Below the pieces are notes generated by a model, which was not told the DNA's origin, did not search any database, and saw only the letters and a program-made list of their open reading frames with translations. The translations under genes and the position numbers were made by a program. This document shows positions 26,752 to 59,970 of a stretch of 64,000 nucleotides of DNA, in pieces. Source of the DNA: a bacterium HR37 (lineage in GTDB: Bacteria; Desulfobacterota_D; UBA1144; Nemesobacterales; CSP1-2); NCBI GenBank assembly GCA_002898375.1, contig BEIN01000011.1, positions 20,001 through 84,000 of the forward strand. The letters run 5' to 3'. Every line of letters begins with the position of its first letter. Positions within the stretch are counted from its first letter, which is position 1.

Positions 26752-26780
26752 TTGATAGGGGTAAATTCTCCATGTATATT
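26752..26780 (+). promoter_or_regulatory. Sigma-70 promoter of the crcB operon
   Basis: TTGATA at 26752-26757, 17 bases, TATATT at 26775-26780 (5 of 6). The predicted start near 26786 falls on the first base of the fluoride aptamer, so the two assignments support each other. A GAGAA-CCCC / GGGG-TTCTC hairpin at 26742-26770 overlaps the -35 and spacer; its role is unclear and it lacks a terminator U-tract. Confidence 0.7.
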
Positions 26781-26785
26781 ATCGC

Positions 26786-26843
26786 AGGCAATGGAGTTCT
26801 GCCTCTAACCACTGTCCAATTTGGGTCAGTTGATGACTCCTAC
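26786..26843 (+). ncRNA. Fluoride riboswitch (crcB motif)
   Basis: The sequence fits the crcB RNA layout. P1 pairs AGGC 26786-26789 with GCCT 26801-26804. The second stem pairs ACTG 26811-26814 with CAGT 26827-26830, with an inner CC/GG. Then come the conserved TGATG (26831-26835) and ACTCC (26836-26840), which can form the pseudoknot with GGAGT 26793-26797. The aptamer sits directly before crcB. There is no U-tract, so control is probably translational: ACTCC could instead pair with GGGAG of the crcB ribosome site near 26878-26882, and fluoride would free it. Confidence 0.85.
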
Positions 26844-26888
26844 CAGAGTTATTATAGAGTTTTAATTCCAGTTGGCGGGAGCAAAGAG

Positions 26889-53095: not shown

Positions 53096-53128
53096 CTAAA
53101 CAGCTTAGCATAAAAGCTCATCTTCCCC

Positions 53129-53157
53129 TTGAATCCTGATTGTGGAGTGATTATTTT
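53129..53157 (+). promoter_or_regulatory. Promoter for hsp20
   Basis: TTGAAT at 53129-53134, 17 bases, TATTTT at 53152-53157. The spacer and leader are G+T-rich like the hsp20 gene body. A GCTAA/TTAGC inverted repeat lies just upstream near 53095-53109. No CIRCE element and no sigma-32 -10 (CCCCATNT) is seen, so any heat control must use something else. Confidence 0.6.
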
Positions 53158-53206
53158 TGGGTTGAGGTGGTTATAAAGAATATTAAAGTTAAGGAGGTGA
53201 TTGGGA

Positions 53207-53668
53207 ATGAGGGGAGAGTTAGCGGTATGGGATCCTTGGAAGGAGTTTGATAGTTTGCAGAGGAGGATAAACAGGGTATTTGAGGAGACTATGAGGGCTT
53301 TATCACCTGTTGTAGGTGGTGAGGAGCTTGAGAGGGGAGTTTGGAGTCCTGCTGTTGATATTTATGAGACTGGTGAGAGTTTTGTTATAAGGGCTGATTT
53401 ACCTGGTGTTAGCAAGGATGATATTCACATTGAGGTTAAGGACAATGTGTTAACGCTTAGGGGTGAGAAGAAGTTTGAGGAGAAGGTATCAAGGGATAAC
53501 TACATAAGGATTGAGCGTTCTTATGGTTCGTTTGTTCGTAGCTTCACCCTCCCACAGAATGTTGATGCTGATAAGATAAAGGCACACTACAAAGATGGTG
53601 TCCTTGAGGTAACCATACCAAAGAAAGAAGAAACAAAACCAAAACAAATTAAAGTCGAAGCTAGTTAA
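53207..53668 (+). CDS. hsp20: Small heat-shock protein Hsp20/alpha-crystallin
   Basis: About 153 residues. The alpha-crystallin domain has the usual marks: WSPAVDIYETGESFVIRADLPGV, IEVKDNVLTLRGEKK, IRIERSYGSFVRSFTLP, and the GVLEVTIPK motif; the tail KPKQIKVE has the I-x-V anchor. It is an ATP-independent holdase. ATG 53207 follows a perfect AAGGAGGTGA. Codon use differs from its neighbours: every Glu is GAG until about 53610 and the last three are GAA. A strong terminator follows. Confidence 0.96.
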   Translation: MRGELAVWDPWKEFDSLQRRINRVFEETMRALSPVVGGEELERGVWSPAVDIYETGESFVIRADLPGVSKDDIHIEVKDNVLTLRGEKKFEEKVSRDNYIRIERSYGSFVRSFTLPQNVDADKIKAHYKDGVLEVTIPKKEETKPKQIKVEAS

Positions 53669-53696
53669 TAAAAGCTAACAAAAGCACCTATTTTAA

Positions 53697-53730
53697 AAGA
53701 AACCCAACTAACACAAGTTGGGTTTCTTTA
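53697..53730 (+). terminator. Strong intrinsic terminator after hsp20
   Basis: A 13-bp perfect stem (AAGAAACCCAACT 53697-53709 with AGTTGGGTTTCTT 53716-53728), a 6-base loop, then a T-rich tail. It is the only classic rho-independent terminator I found in this window. The next ATG is only 17 bases after it, so the histone-fold gene either relies on read-through or on a promoter inside this region. Confidence 0.9.
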
Positions 53731-53746
53731 TATAAGGAGGGATAAC

Positions 53747-54199
53747 ATGGAAACCATAATGGGGGTGGCAAAATTTGAACGCCTATTTAGAAAAGCAGCA
53801 GGTTTAGACGTAGATAAAAGTGATCTTAAACGCTTAAGTGATTTTATCAACCAGAACCTCTATGATCTGTTACTAATAGGAGAATCAAAGGCAAAAGCTA
53901 ACAACAGGGATATAATTGAACCCTGGGACCTCCCTATAACAAAGGGACTCCAGGAAAGCATTAACGAATTTAAACAAATAGAAGAAGAACTTGAGTTAAA
54001 ACCAATTCTTGAGCAATTAGCCAAGGTATCAAAACTAGACCTTGAGTGCAGCTATCAAACCCAGCAAAAACTACCTGAAATAGTAGGAGCACTAACAATA
54101 AGTCTAGCCAAGACCTTTAAGGTTATTGATCCCCAGATTAAAAACCCAGAAGCCCAACACTGGGAAAGAGCTTTCAGCATATTTAATATGCTTCTCTAA
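53747..54199 (+). CDS. DUF1931 histone-fold protein (Aq_328-like tandem histone)
   Basis: 150 residues. The first half, KFERLFRKAAGLDVDKSD then LKRLSDFINQNLYDLLLIGE and NNRDIIEPWDL, aligns well with the archaeal histone fold: Arg after alpha-1, long alpha-2, then the Arg-x-x-Ile-x-x-x-Asp-Leu loop. The second half is a degenerate second copy. The Aquifex protein Aq_328 of this family has a pseudodimeric histone fold by crystal structure. DNA binding is not shown for this protein. AAGGAGGGATAAC precedes the ATG. Its stop overlaps the convergent HTH gene by 4 bases. Confidence 0.85.
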   Translation: METIMGVAKFERLFRKAAGLDVDKSDLKRLSDFINQNLYDLLLIGESKAKANNRDIIEPWDLPITKGLQESINEFKQIEEELELKPILEQLAKVSKLDLECSYQTQQKLPEIVGALTISLAKTFKVIDPQIKNPEAQHWERAFSIFNMLL

Positions 54200-54816
54200 C
54201 CCAGAGCCTCTTTTATAGCTTTTAAAAGCTGAGAAGGACTTTTTATTTCTTTTGGTAATCTTTCCCTAAGCTCTGATAACTTCTTATCTTCAATACTTAT
54301 ATCCGCTGCTCTTTCAAGCAGTTGCTCTACTGTAATTGGAAAATCCAACCCCTTTATCCTTCTTAGAACCTCAACAGGCCAGAATACCCCGTAAATTTCG
54401 GATGTGGTCTGAATGTAGTGTGAGAATAACTCCAAGTAATCCCTTCCTTCTTTGATCTCCTGATATGCCAACTTAGCAAGCCCCCCTGCAGTATGAGCTT
54501 TAAGCGTTTTCTTTGGAGTCTCAAGCTCACCACTTAGTCTTTGCTTTACAAGCTCAGGATCAGCTCTTAATATGTTTCTTACGGTGTTTCTAGCTATACC
54601 AAGAAACTGGGCTATTTCATCCTCTGTTTTAGCACTTTCATGTAAAAGCACAACAGCATAAGAGGCTGACATTAAACTTGGAAGCCACGTTAAGTTCCTA
54701 AATTCTATTAGCTTTCTAGGACCACCTATTATCTCAAGGGCTTTTAGAAAAACCCTTATTGCAACAGAATCAACATCGTATTCCTGGATCTCAGATGGTT
54801 CTAGTACCTTCATCAT
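54196..54816 (-). CDS. HTH protein paired with the KaiC-like ATPase
   Basis: 206 residues. A helix-turn-helix is visible near the middle: SAKTEDEIAQFLGIARNTVRNIL. The N-terminal part is helical and the last 100 residues are a helical domain of unknown fold with KSPSQLLKAI at the end. I do not recognise a named family; similar HTH proteins sit beside KaiC/RecA-like ATPases in thermophiles. The start overlaps the ATPase stop as TAATG, with GGAGGT upstream. A regulator of the nearby hsp20 or histone genes is an inference from position. Confidence 0.75.
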   Translation of the reverse strand: MMKVLEPSEIQEYDVDSVAIRVFLKALEIIGGPRKLIEFRNLTWLPSLMSASYAVVLLHESAKTEDEIAQFLGIARNTVRNILRADPELVKQRLSGELETPKKTLKAHTAGGLAKLAYQEIKEGRDYLELFSHYIQTTSEIYGVFWPVEVLRRIKGLDFPITVEQLLERAADISIEDKKLSELRERLPKEIKSPSQLLKAIKEALG

Positions 54817-55688
54817 TACCTACCTCCTCCCTTTAGTTCTTTTAGAGATTTACCCACCACAACCAACCCCGTCTCAGTTATAGTCATTAACCTTGTTGAG
54901 GTATCATGGCCACATATCCTACAACCGTCTATCCTGAATAACCTTACAATCTCACCAATAGGTAGTCCATACAACCTCTCATCATACGATGAATCTATGC
55001 TTTTTTTTGCAAGTGCAATATTACAATCAACAATGTGCGGAACAGCATAACCACCTGCTGCTTCTACAGAGAACTCCTCATGTCCACTCCGTTTCTGGGA
55101 GACAAAGAAGGCTGTTTGATACCACTTCTTCATAAAATTAAACAGCCTGCGAACAATAGTCCTTGCCATAACCTCTTTTGCTTCATAAAGGCCTGTTACA
55201 GAATCTATGACCACATTTTTTGCCTTGTACTTCTTTATTGAGTAAGCAAGCGTATTAAGTAAAGTCTGGATATCATCCCTTAACTGGTCATAACTTGCAG
55301 CATCTATTATTATTATCTTCTCTTCTATACTGCTTGGATTTATACCCATAGCACTTGCTCTTTCCCTTAAGCTGGCAGAAACAAAAGGTGCAGTGGTCTC
55401 TACGGTCACAAATATAGTGGTGTTTCCTAAGCTGGATTGCTTTATTGCAAACTGTTCGGCCATAAGAGTTTTACCCGTATCTGAAACACCTGTTACGTTA
55501 ATTACAGCGTACCTAGGAAATCCCCCGAGAGGTTGTTTTATAACCCTCCCATCTTTAATCTTTGTTATGTAAAATAGCTCATCAACTCCCTCTATACCTG
55601 AGGGTACTCCCTCAAGTTGGGGAGCTTCCTTTAAGCTCTGTTTTAACGGACTTATAGATTCTAGAACTACATTTTCCCTTTCATCCAT
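54816..55688 (-). CDS. KaiC/RecA-like ATPase (circadian-clock-type superfamily)
   Basis: 290 residues. A KaiC entry, EGVPSGIEGVDELFYI, is followed by the P-loop GVSDTGKTLMAEQFA, a KaiC-like FVTVETTAPFV, Walker B NVVIDSVTGLY, and VSQKRSGHEEFSVEAAGGYAVPHIVD. A C-terminal CRICGH with MTITETGLVVV is typical of single-domain KaiC-like proteins in archaea and Aquificales. It is not a clock protein; single-domain versions may control signalling or DNA-bound complexes. ATG 55688, no Shine-Dalgarno; see promoter at 55698-55726. Confidence 0.88.
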   Translation of the reverse strand: MDERENVVLESISPLKQSLKEAPQLEGVPSGIEGVDELFYITKIKDGRVIKQPLGGFPRYAVINVTGVSDTGKTLMAEQFAIKQSSLGNTTIFVTVETTAPFVSASLRERASAMGINPSSIEEKIIIIDAASYDQLRDDIQTLLNTLAYSIKKYKAKNVVIDSVTGLYEAKEVMARTIVRRLFNFMKKWYQTAFFVSQKRSGHEEFSVEAAGGYAVPHIVDCNIALAKKSIDSSYDERLYGLPIGEIVRLFRIDGCRICGHDTSTRLMTITETGLVVVGKSLKELKGGGR

Positions 55689-55697
55689 CACAAGAGT

Positions 55698-55726
55698 AAA
55701 ATAATCATTAAAGATGTTTTGTCCAA
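55698..55726 (-). promoter_or_regulatory. Promoter for the KaiC-like/HTH operon, nearly leaderless
   Basis: On the minus strand, TTGGAC (55726-55721), 17 bases, TATTTT (55703-55698), then 9 bases to the ATG. The -10 is the same hexamer as in the ftsK and hsp20 promoters. Confidence 0.5.
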
Positions 55727-55778
55727 TGTTTTTTTAAAATTTAGCCAATTTTTACCATAGTGTGCAATAATTAAATAC

Positions 55779-56681
55779 ATGTACCGAAAACGGAAAAAGA
55801 AAAAAAGGATACGAACAAGCTCAACAAAGGAAGGAATCCTCTTTTTAATAATTACACTGTTTGTAGGCATTGCAGCACTTAACACAGGAAACAATCTCCT
55901 CTACCTGATTTTTGGAATGATGATAAGTGCCGTTATAACCTCAGGAGTAATTTCCATGTTAAACCTTTCAAGGATAGATATAGGATTTACCACTTCAGGA
56001 GACATATTTGCCATGACCCCAACACACCTAAGGGTTCATCTTCGAAATTCAAAGCTCATTCCCTCATATTCGTTAACACTCGAGATAGAAGACAGAAAAA
56101 CCCACCTACTCTACCTCCCCTCAAAAAAGGAAAAAACCGTAATTATGGGATATATATTTAAAAAAAGAGGATGGAACAACATCCCTCCTATAAGAGTCTA
56201 TACCAGATTTCCTTTCGGATTCTTTAGGAAGTGGGTAGAAGTGGAACCAAAGAACCAAAGGATACTTGTTTACCCGAGACTCCAAAAGCTACAATTCCCA
56301 GAGCTAAATTATACAGAAGGTGCAGAAAAGGAAACCCATAACAGGGCAGGATCTGGAGATGAATTGAGATCGCTTAGGCCCTACAACCAAGGAGATAGCC
56401 CAAAGCTAATCCACTGGAAAACAACAGCTAAAGCCGGAAAGCTTATGATACGAGAGTCCCACGATAACGATTCCAAAAGAGTAGTCCTAAGGTTCAATCC
56501 GGTAGATACCGAAAGAGAACTTGAAAACCAGATAAGCTATACTACCTCCCTCCTTTTAGAACTGTTGAATCGAGGGTTTGATGTAGAGTTTTTAACACCA
56601 GATAAGACTTTTTACATATCCAGAACCGGCAAATCTATAAAGCAAGCATTAACATATCTTGCGCTTTTTAGAAACCAGTAA
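55779..56681 (+). CDS. DUF58 protein with two membrane helices
   Basis: 300 residues. Two N-terminal helices (LFLIITLFVGIAAL; LIFGMMISAVITSGVI), then the DUF58 core: RVHLRNSKLIPSYSL, IRVYTRFPFGFFRKW, and RSLRPYNQGDSPKLIHWKTTAKAGKLMIRE. DUF58 proteins often work with MoxR ATPases; none is adjacent. The start has no Shine-Dalgarno; TAATTA lies 5 bases before the ATG. It overlaps the convergent Nudix gene by 14 bases. Confidence 0.88.
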   Translation: MYRKRKKKKRIRTSSTKEGILFLIITLFVGIAALNTGNNLLYLIFGMMISAVITSGVISMLNLSRIDIGFTTSGDIFAMTPTHLRVHLRNSKLIPSYSLTLEIEDRKTHLLYLPSKKEKTVIMGYIFKKRGWNNIPPIRVYTRFPFGFFRKWVEVEPKNQRILVYPRLQKLQFPELNYTEGAEKETHNRAGSGDELRSLRPYNQGDSPKLIHWKTTAKAGKLMIRESHDNDSKRVVLRFNPVDTERELENQISYTTSLLLELLNRGFDVEFLTPDKTFYISRTGKSIKQALTYLALFRNQ

Positions 56682-57177
56682 ATGTCTTCTTTATATAATC
56701 CATAAGGGCATCTTTTGTACTCTGAAAAGCAAGTTCATCCCATGGAATCTCATCAGGAGCAAAGGTCTTTACCTCCAAACACTCATCACATGCTTTAAGT
56801 TCCCCGCCTATAACCTCAGCTGAATACACAATTATAATCACAGGACGACCGGTATAGGAATATATACCAACTAAATCCCTAAGTCTTACATCAAGATTTA
56901 CCTCCTCCTTGGTCTCCCGTATTGCCGCATCCTCAACCCTTTCCCCACGACTGACATAACCTCCAGGAAATACCCATTTACCGTAGCTTGGTTCAATACT
57001 GCGTTTAAGAAGAGGTATCTTCCCATCAATAGTACATATGGTGCACGCTGCCACCTTTGGATCAAGGTAGAAAACAAAGGAACAACCTTCGCAAACCAGA
57101 TATTCAGGTTCGTTAGATTTAATCCGCCTTAATCTTAAAATATTTCCACACTTGGGACAGAACTTATAATCTACCAT
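56668..57177 (-). CDS. Nudix hydrolase with N-terminal zinc ribbon
   Basis: 169 residues. Zinc ribbon Cys7-x2-Cys10 and Cys29-x2-Cys32, then the Nudix box GGYVSRGERVEDAAIRETKEEVNLD (GX5EX7REUXEE pattern intact). NADH pyrophosphatase-like enzymes have this layout. The substrate is unknown. The start is 6 bases after the MBL gene stop on the minus strand. Confidence 0.9.
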   Translation of the reverse strand: MVDYKFCPKCGNILRLRRIKSNEPEYLVCEGCSFVFYLDPKVAACTICTIDGKIPLLKRSIEPSYGKWVFPGGYVSRGERVEDAAIRETKEEVNLDVRLRDLVGIYSYTGRPVIIIVYSAEVIGGELKACDECLEVKTFAPDEIPWDELAFQSTKDALMDYIKKTFTGF

Positions 57178-57183
57178 ACCCTG

Positions 57184-57903
57184 TTATGTTAAGGTTTCTC
57201 CCGGCTTCAACTCTATAATCTCCATATCCTTGATGTCTTTTGTGAGCTCTCTTAGTTTAGAGGGAGTTCCTGTAAGGACAGGGAATGTACCATAATGCAT
57301 CGGTATAACGTATCTAGGAGAAAGGAAACGACAGGCATAGGCCGCTTCCTGTGGAGACATGGTAAAGAGGTCTCCTATGGGAATCATAACCAACTCGGGT
57401 TTGTAGATTTCAGCTATCAACTTCATATCGCTAAAGACTGCTGTATCTCCCGCATGATAGATTTTAAACCCGTTCTCAAATTCAATAACATATCCTACAG
57501 CTTCACCTCCGTAAATTATTTTCCCATCATCGTCCTGAATTCCACAGCTATGGTCTGCATGAACCATGGTAAACTTTATTCCATCTACCTCCTGTGTACC
57601 CCCTTTATTCATGGGCATAATCGATTCTACCCCCTTAGAGTTTACCCATACACATGTTTCAAAAATACCGACCACCTTAGGCTTATATTCCTTCCCAAGT
57701 GCCACAGCATCACCTATATGGTCGAAATGCGCATGGGTTATTGCCATAATATCTATGCGATCAAACTTTTTAAGTTCTTCAGGGCATGCAGGATTTCCAT
57801 ATACCCAAGGGTCAATAAGCACCACTTTTCCATTTGGTGATTTTATTTTAAAAGTAGCATGACCAAGGTACGTAATTTCAACTCCTTTATTTAGCTTTCC
57901 CAT
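57184..57903 (-). CDS. Metallo-beta-lactamase-fold hydrolase, UPF0173 family
   Basis: 239 residues. Zinc motif THAHFDHIGD, upstream VEITYLGHATFKI, further ligands in VMIPIGDLFTMSPQEAA and VIPMHYGTFPVLTG. The family is widely conserved; its substrate is not firmly known. GGAGAGAAATGG precedes the start. The 165-base gap to archease has no gene. Confidence 0.92.
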   Translation of the reverse strand: MGKLNKGVEITYLGHATFKIKSPNGKVVLIDPWVYGNPACPEELKKFDRIDIMAITHAHFDHIGDAVALGKEYKPKVVGIFETCVWVNSKGVESIMPMNKGGTQEVDGIKFTMVHADHSCGIQDDDGKIIYGGEAVGYVIEFENGFKIYHAGDTAVFSDMKLIAEIYKPELVMIPIGDLFTMSPQEAAYACRFLSPRYVIPMHYGTFPVLTGTPSKLRELTKDIKDMEIIELKPGETLT

Positions 57904-58068
57904 TTCTCTCCTCCGTCTTTAAATTGTCTTTCTAAAACTTAAATTAACCATACCACCGGATATATTGCAATACCTAAAATACCTAATAAAACCAGTTTAC
58001 GGTTGTATTTTTGTTAAGCTTACCTAGACTAATACACAGCACGTAATTATATTAATAATGGTTCAGAT

Positions 58069-58482
58069 ATGAAGTATGAAATCATTGACCACACAGCTGA
58101 TGTATGTATAAGGGTCTACGGTAAATCAATTGAGGAGCTTTTTAAAAATGCGGCAACAGCAATGATGGAGCTAATTACAGATACAGGCAAAGTGGAAACT
58201 TCCCAAGCAGTTGAAATCAAAGCTGAGGGTGAAACACCAGAAGAGCTTCTGGTTCACTGGCTAGAGGAAATACTCTACACACACCAGGTAAAGAAAATGG
58301 TTTTTAAAGATTTTGAAATAATAAACTTATCCAAAAACCAAATTGTTGGTAAGGCATTGGGCGAAAATATAGACCCAGATAAACACGATTTACATCATGA
58401 CATCAAGGCAGTCACATATCACAATTTGAGAATAGAGAACTTAAATGATAAATTAAAAGTAGATATAGTATTTGATATCTAG
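58069..58482 (+). CDS. Archease (RtcB activator)
   Basis: 137 residues. MKYEIIDHTADVCIRVYGKSIEELFKNAATAMMELI is the archease opening; Asp in HTADV and the C-terminal KVDIVFDI with DLHHDIKAVTYH supply metal ligands. Archease speeds RtcB guanylylation. rtcB starts 43 bases downstream, so they form the standard pair. No Shine-Dalgarno. Confidence 0.93.
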   Translation: MKYEIIDHTADVCIRVYGKSIEELFKNAATAMMELITDTGKVETSQAVEIKAEGETPEELLVHWLEEILYTHQVKKMVFKDFEIINLSKNQIVGKALGENIDPDKHDLHHDIKAVTYHNLRIENLNDKLKVDIVFDI

Positions 58483-58524
58483 TACTATACCAAAAGAAAG
58501 ATAAGGATATGGGGTGATTGTAAT

Positions 58525-59970
58525 ATGCAGGAGGATATAAAGCTTGTAAAGATACATGACTATCTATGGGAAATCCCAAAGAAGGGAGGGATGCGTGTAC
58601 CCGGCAGAATCTATGCAAGCGAGAAGATGTTAAAAGTTATCAAGGAGGATAAGTCGCTTGAACAGGTAATAAACGTTGCTCATCTACCAGGAATCCAGAA
58701 ATACTCTATAGCAATGCCTGATATACACTGGGGATATGGATTCCCGATAGGGGGAATTGCCGCAATGGATATAGACGAAGGGGTTATCTCCCCAGGAGGT
58801 GTGGGATATGATATAAACTGCGGTGTAAGACTTATGAGAACAAACCTAACAGAAGAAGAAGTTAGACCAAAACTGAGAGAACTGGTTGCTGAGTTGTTCA
58901 ATCGTGTTCCTTCAGGTGTTGGTGCAAGCGGTAAAATCAAGCTTTCAAGAAACGATTACAAGGAAATAATAGAGAAGGGTGCTAGATGGGCAATTGAGCG
59001 CGGATGGGGAGAGTCTGAAGACCTTGAGAGAATAGAAGACCACGGAACCTTCCCAGGAGGAGACCCTGATGCAATAAGTGCCAGAGCCTTTGAAAGGGGA
59101 AGTGATGAAATCGGCACCTTGGGCTCAGGAAACCATTTTCTCGAAGTTGATGTTGTAGAGCAGATATATAACCCAACCATAGCAGATGCCTTTGGACTCT
59201 TCAAAGGCCAGGTATGTGTACTTATACACTGTGGATCCAGAGGATTTGGTCACCAGATTTGCTCCGATTACATAGATAAAATGCTCTCTTACATGAGACG
59301 TGAAGGAATTAACCTTCCCGATAAACAACTTGCATGCGCACACATCAAGTCCAAGGAAGGACGAGATTACCTTGCCGCATTTGCAGCAGCTGTAAACTAC
59401 GCATGGACAAACAGGCAGATAATAATGGCCTCTGCAAGAGAAGCCTTCTACAAGGTATTCGGTATAGGCCCAAAGGACCTCGGTGGAGAGCTTGTATACG
59501 ATGTAAGCCATAATATAGCAAAATTTGAAGAACACAAGGTAAACGGGCAAATAAAGAAGCTATGCGTACACAGAAAGGGAGCAACAAGGGCATTTCCCAA
59601 GGGACATCCGCTTGTCCCTGAGGTGTATAGAGACGTTGGCCAACCAGTGCTTATTCCTGGAGATATGGGGAGAGCTTCATTCGTCCTTGTGGGAACCGAA
59701 GCAGCTCTTGAAGAGACTTTTGGATCAAGCTGCCATGGAGCAGGAAGGGTGCTCTCAAGAAGCAAGGCAATAAAGAGCGGAAGAGATAGGGACCTGTTTA
59801 AAGAGCTGGAAGAGAAAGGAATAATTGTAATGGCAAAGGGTAAAAAAACTGTATTAGAAGAAATGCCAGAAGCCTATAAAGATGCAGAAGAGGTATGTGA
59901 TATAGTTCACAATGCTGGAATCGCCAAAAAGGTAGCAAAACTAAGACCGATAGGAGTTGTAAAGGGATAA
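58525..59970 (+). CDS. rtcB: RNA-splicing ligase RtcB
   Basis: 481 residues. Metal Cys in GGVGYDINCGVRLM, His motifs in GSGNHFLEVD and LIHCGSRGFGHQ, and the GMP-attachment His in GSSCHGAGRVLSRSKA. It joins 2',3'-cyclic phosphate and 5'-OH RNA ends with GTP. No intein. GGGGTGA is 6 bases before the ATG. serS follows 9 bases later, hinting at a tRNA link. Confidence 0.97.
   Translation: MQEDIKLVKIHDYLWEIPKKGGMRVPGRIYASEKMLKVIKEDKSLEQVINVAHLPGIQKYSIAMPDIHWGYGFPIGGIAAMDIDEGVISPGGVGYDINCGVRLMRTNLTEEEVRPKLRELVAELFNRVPSGVGASGKIKLSRNDYKEIIEKGARWAIERGWGESEDLERIEDHGTFPGGDPDAISARAFERGSDEIGTLGSGNHFLEVDVVEQIYNPTIADAFGLFKGQVCVLIHCGSRGFGHQICSDYIDKMLSYMRREGINLPDKQLACAHIKSKEGRDYLAAFAAAVNYAWTNRQIIMASAREAFYKVFGIGPKDLGGELVYDVSHNIAKFEEHKVNGQIKKLCVHRKGATRAFPKGHPLVPEVYRDVGQPVLIPGDMGRASFVLVGTEAALEETFGSSCHGAGRVLSRSKAIKSGRDRDLFKELEEKGIIVMAKGKKTVLEEMPEAYKDAEEVCDIVHNAGIAKKVAKLRPIGVVKG

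Follow-up and report, generated by a model that had tools for sequence, protein, structure and literature searches.

The window is the whole 64,000-nucleotide stretch of DNA that was analysed. At the locus of interest, an hsp20 gene and a gene for a DUF1931 double histone-fold protein are read on the forward strand, while a KaiC-like ATPase gene and a gene for a helix-turn-helix (HTH) protein are read on the reverse strand (Table 1). Open reading frames and domain searches bear out the original prediction here: the four genes lie on the strands stated, and the two convergent units meet in a 4-base overlap. In addition, base 54816 is common to the KaiC stop and the HTH start.

Inspection of the sequence reveals a Shine-Dalgarno element (AAGGAGGTG) ahead of hsp20 and, between hsp20 and DUF1931, a terminator-like hairpin with a 10-bp stem (53700-53725) and a short T-rich tail, which scored too low to be listed by the terminator scan. 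Because of this hairpin, hsp20 and DUF1931 do not form a continuous operon. No sigma-70-like promoter at the locus scored above chance, and the search of the window region for heat-shock operators found neither CIRCE nor a clean HAIR element, the loose HAIR scan giving noise only. Elsewhere in the window, a fluoride riboswitch aptamer occurs at 26778-26849 (RF01734, 55 bits).

Table 1. Genes and other features of the locus, in window coordinates.
Feature	Position	Strand	Evidence or details
Duplicated block (hsp20 and upstream region)	53128-53668	+	blastn within genome
hsp20	ATG 53207 (alternative start TTG 53201) to 53668	+	ORF; PF00011 E=5e-30
Terminator-like hairpin between hsp20 and DUF1931	53700-53731	+	AAACCCAACT-AACACA-AGTTGGGTTT, then CTTTAT
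DUF1931 double histone-fold (pseudodimer) protein, 150 aa, type I clade	53747-54199	+	PF09123 E=6e-57
Tail-to-tail overlap of 4 bases, DUF1931 and HTH stop codons	54196-54199
HTH protein with near_KaiC domain, 206 aa	54196-54816	-	TIGR03879 near_KaiC_dom E=1e-32
Single-domain KaiC-like ATPase, 291 aa	54816-55691	-	TIGR03878 thermo_KaiC_2 E=1.6e-126

The block comprising hsp20 and its upstream region is duplicated: blastn within the genome matches it to a second contig (G000:C13, locus L231, 5732-6272) at 538 of 541 positions (99.4%), where the other hsp20 copy adjoins a reverse-gyrase gene. Each copy is followed by its own, separate hairpin. In both copies the GC skew is ~+0.63 over the first 320 bases and shifts sharply to ~0 in the last 140. 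Given this identity, the hsp20 of the window arose by recent copying, was made alike by gene conversion or marks the place of an assembly join; whichever applies, some hsp20 copy precedes DUF1931, since the latter starts 78 bp past the end of the repeat.

The KaiC/HTH pair

Both reverse-strand proteins pass the cut-offs of their families, the KaiC-like protein with 421 bits (TIGR03878, cut-off 232.2) and the HTH protein with 112.5 bits (TIGR03879, cut-off 65.1). The ATPase has an intact P-loop (GVSDTGKT) and Walker B motif (VVIDS). We rejected its assignment as a circadian KaiC, a protein with two KaiC domains and KaiA/KaiB partners, because it contains one KaiC domain (residues 29-280 of 291) and reaches 51 bits against a circ_KaiC cut-off of 546. 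The AlphaFold model of the HTH protein is confident (pLDDT 81); its comparison with solved structures gave weak matches to ParB, TFIIB and sigma-4 HTH domains, the ParB type ranking first and none falling below E=0.2.

One scan of bacterial and archaeal species genomes provided 80 other loci of the same KaiC family (TIGR03878), distributed over Aquificota, WOR-3, Hydrothermota, Aminicenantes, Campylobacterota, Thermodesulfobacteriota, Nitrospirota, Calditrichota, Spirochaetota and DPANN archaea; an additional locus lies on a Thermomicrobium megaplasmid. The HTH gene (TIGR03879) adjoins KaiC in 26 of 29 lineage groups, with both genes co-directional in 43 of 44 loci; any third gene family accompanies the pair in three lineages at most (80 loci, 29 lineage groups). 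Neither DUF1931 nor hsp20 was found near KaiC in any of the 80 loci. Among 50 genomes with this KaiC, a clear DUF1931 gene is present in just 7-8 and adjacent in none; as DUF1931 is carried by 52 of the 136 genomes of the Aquificota sample, its co-occurrence with KaiC does not rise above background. The regular adjacency of HTH and KaiC, together with the lack of nearby DUF1931 or hsp20 and of excess co-occurrence, identifies the pair as an independent unit.

This two-gene unit is a known one, already catalogued in NCBIfam, whose notes place the TIGR03879 domain beside a KaiC homologue. The supposition that the gene set had not been described was thus mistaken for this part of it. The conservation of the pair shows a unit of thermophiles that has spread widely by transfer among bacteria and archaea. 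It most likely serves as an ATP-driven sensor or switch that acts on a DNA-binding regulator or through one.

Some other genes recur in the vicinity of the family. Seven Aquificaceae loci (L023, L031, L032, L033, L036, L038, L055) have a KaiC gene without HTH 2.3-3.2 kb upstream of rseP, and in the window rseP lies just beyond hsp20. Archease-rtcB is found near the pair in a Microgenomates locus (L071, 258-4222) and in the window (54816-59970). A Nudix hydrolase gene is located within about 1.5 kb of the pair in Thermomicrobium (L005, 7930-8445), on a Nanohaloarchaeota contig (L067, 2470-2928) and in the window (56668-57177).

DUF1931 and its genomic neighbours

The DUF1931 protein matches PF09123 over its full length (192 bits, profile positions 1-138 of 138). 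With phmmer, Thermus TTHA1479 (1WWI; E=1.4e-48) is its closest solved homologue, and Aq_328 (1R4V) is found at 2.2e-9. Across an alignment of 28 diverse members, R54 and D61, which form the R-D clamp of histones, never vary. By contrast with nucleosomal histones, the residue after R54, i.e., the lysine of the RKT DNA-contact motif, is Asp or Glu in 27 of the 28, and the threonine position is occupied by V, I or F, so that R-[DE]-[VIF] replaces RKT. Furthermore, the window protein is acidic (pI 5.2), as are most members (pI below 6). These properties are in line with published surveys, which count DUF1931 among the two dominant families of histone-fold proteins in bacteria and describe it as devoid of DNA-binding residues and for this reason of unclear role (PMC11390915, PMC12701072, PMC13088155). 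A Thermus Tn-seq study reports few insertions in the DUF1931 gene (PMC13140390).

The neighbours of DUF1931 were ranked by an unbiased all-against-all comparison of the surrounding genes in 21 lineage groups. The most widespread real neighbour family is hsp20, which occurs within 6 kb in 8 of the 21. The 33 DUF1931 genomes contain 70 hsp20 genes in 74.6 Mb, or 0.94 per Mb, which gives a random locus a chance of about 1.1% of having an hsp20 gene within 6 kb. When the window is excluded, 7 of 20 lineage groups have this arrangement; with few lineages and a background density taken from the 33 genomes, the binomial probability is 1.5e-9, and it is still 0.007 if plasmids are assumed to have ten times that hsp20 density. 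The association of hsp20 with DUF1931 across bacteria is real. As far as could be found it is undescribed, and the available portions of the open-access literature (PMC13088155, PMC12701072, PMC11390915, PMC13140390) make no mention of chaperone islands with DUF1931.

Several of these loci are extensive stress islands on plasmids. In Trichormus, dnaK-trx-hsp20-groEL-groES adjoins DUF1931 on the groES side, and the same island, broken by insertion sequences, is present on a Nostoc plasmid. Rhodococcus and Nocardia plasmids carry dnaK-grpE-cbpA-cbpM-clpB-trxA-UBPzf-TrxR-DUF1931 (TrxR, thioredoxin reductase), with a last gap of 13 nt before DUF1931, and in a Streptomyces plasmid dnaK-grpE-dnaJ-cbpM-clpB lies at most about 7 kb away. 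An hsp20-hsp20-DUF1931 fragment occurs on an Aquicella plasmid, and dnaK-clpB-hsp20 precedes a frameshifted DUF1931 on an Azospirillum plasmid. The last two DUF1931 genes (L148, L149) are broken by transposon insertion and frameshifts, which indicates that the gene can disappear from stress islands. On chromosomes, Rhodothermus-like Bacteroidota have hsp20 0.6-2.4 kb from DUF1931, with clpB and cbpA as well in one genus (four of the five loci are syntenic close relatives and were counted once); Campylobacterota have the order Crp-YfdX-DUF1931-HdeD-DUF505-AhpC, and some Aquificota have YfdX about 1 kb upstream (YfdX-x-x-DUF1931). In the Rhodothermus-like genomes (L163-L167) and in the Azospirillum island (L149, 16092), DUF5335 is located directly upstream of DUF1931 and may be a further function-unassigned gene belonging to stress islands.

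Taken together, these loci show DUF1931 to be a repeated component of heat-shock and protein-quality-control islands. The tree places the window protein in a clade of 17 (SH-aLRT 100) that includes most of the hsp20-linked and all of the clpB-linked members. Many copies, among them most of those in Aquificota as well as copies in Nautiliaceae, Nitrospirota and Desulfobacterota, have no chaperone neighbour, and a search around the islands yielded neither CIRCE nor a clean HAIR element. The samples contained one DUF1931 carrier in Nitrospirota and none in Acidobacteriota or Armatimonadota. A phage origin was rejected, since DUF1931 is absent from 50,697 phage records and neither KaiC nor DUF1931 relatives were confirmed in viral contigs. 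In 60 relatives (same family, order and class or beyond), DUF1931 and the KaiC family were both without a match above cut-off, a distribution suggesting that the two were acquired laterally.

Interpretation of the locus

The locus is best explained as two unrelated transcription units meeting tail to tail, the overlap being a packing accident of this genome. We consider it probable that one is a KaiC/HTH switch and the other an hsp20 gene followed by a DUF1931 gene whose product is a chaperone accessory. Judging from genomic context and residues, the most likely role of DUF1931 is that of an accessory to heat-shock proteostasis whose histone fold does not bind DNA. It would act in the cytoplasm alongside the chaperone machinery, the histone fold being kept as a helical scaffold for protein partners or unfolding clients instead of DNA. 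A more specific version, which we advance tentatively, is that DUF1931 may be a dedicated part of laterally transferred heat-shock and protein-quality-control islands, its DNA-contact loop charge-reversed, and may serve as a protein-binding cochaperone or client scaffold with Hsp20, ClpB/DnaK or the envelope-stress module YfdX-HdeD. Against a chaperone accessory, it can be argued that the hsp20 link is not universal, many DUF1931 copies having no chaperone nearby and the islands no recognizable CIRCE or clean HAIR; that plasmid islands may collect stress genes without functional contact; and that the window hsp20 is a near-identical duplicate separated from DUF1931 by a hairpin.

The last of these points is the basis for regarding the proximity of hsp20 and DUF1931 as accidental here, a freshly duplicated hsp20 having landed upstream of a DUF1931 gene with another role. 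The nearly identical 541-bp block beside reverse gyrase, the separate hairpins downstream of the two copies and the absence of DUF1931 from other relatives of the order and class would fit such an event, but hsp20 adjoins DUF1931 in several unrelated lineages, a duplicate would hardly have landed here by chance, and two older copies made alike by gene conversion would give the same picture; we find an accident rather doubtful. The same repeat, being longer than short reads, might also have misjoined two regions during assembly, in which case the stretch on the rseP side, upstream of hsp20, may belong elsewhere. Such an error is improbable, and it would still leave an hsp20 copy ahead of DUF1931, which begins beyond the repeat, and the KaiC/HTH side untouched. 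As for DUF1931 itself, a nucleoid protein induced by stress, protecting or compacting DNA in heat shock, would account for its location in heat-shock islands and for the histone pseudodimer fold (1WWI, 1R4V), and high RNA or protein levels are reported for some bacterial histone-fold proteins (PMC10627809). This role is unlikely in view of the acidity of the protein, of the Asp or Glu that takes the place of the DNA-contact lysine in nearly all members, and of the surveys cited above, which find the family without DNA-binding residues.

The original prediction went further and joined all four genes in a stress-responsive chromatin module, in which the KaiC/HTH pair would control the histone-fold protein or be under its control. 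In a wider form of this reading, the pair would regulate hsp20 as well as DUF1931. The genes do adjoin in the window, and the lack of both families in the 60 relatives makes a joint arrival possible. Nevertheless, we rejected such a system, which is very hard to credit: it fails both tests that the prediction had set for itself, namely adjacency, as DUF1931 and hsp20 are near none of the 80 KaiC loci, and co-occurrence, as DUF1931 is present in just the 7-8 of 50 KaiC genomes mentioned above, in none of which the two genes adjoin; the units are convergent and have no common promoter region; and DUF1931 has no DNA-contact residues. An acidic protein with Asp/Glu in place of the DNA-contact lysine and with stress genes as neighbours is most likely not chromatin, which agrees with views expressed in two surveys (PMC11390915, PMC12701072). 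What survives is the link to stress, carried by hsp20 and DUF1931 and recurring across distant bacteria; the four-gene set and chromatin do not.

The reading of the locus as bacterial stress chromatin, tempting as it is, is thereby corrected, and the KaiC/HTH pair stands apart as an independent, widely transferred unit. The recurrence of DUF1931 in operons of chaperone genes and in stress islands (Cyanobacteria, Actinomycetota, Pseudomonadota, Bacteroidota and Campylobacterota) suggests a specific, testable role for the family. If true, the histone fold would have been diverted from DNA to proteostasis.

Comparison with known systems

The window pair runs start to stop, like most of the 80 loci, and is an ordinary member of the TIGR03878/TIGR03879 pairs of NCBIfam, with no distinctive feature; most Aquificaceae differ from it in having KaiC without HTH nearby. 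The DUF1931 protein resembles the double histone-fold proteins Aq_328 (1R4V) and TTHA1479 (1WWI) in its full-length match, R-D clamp and length.

Finally, the stress islands can be compared with the tLST heat-resistance island, in which YfdX and HdeD form a cell-envelope stress module and hsp20/ClpG a proteostasis module (PMC8290217). DUF1931 is absent from the gene list described for that island (PMC8290217). The tLST core brings dna-hsp20-clpG together, whereas in the window only hsp20 is beside DUF1931, with no clpG/clpB, yfdX or hdeD. Across bacteria, in turn, genes for Hsp20, Clp ATPase, thioredoxin, YfdX and HdeD are common to tLST and the DUF1931 loci (PMC8290217), and the latter are often found on plasmids.
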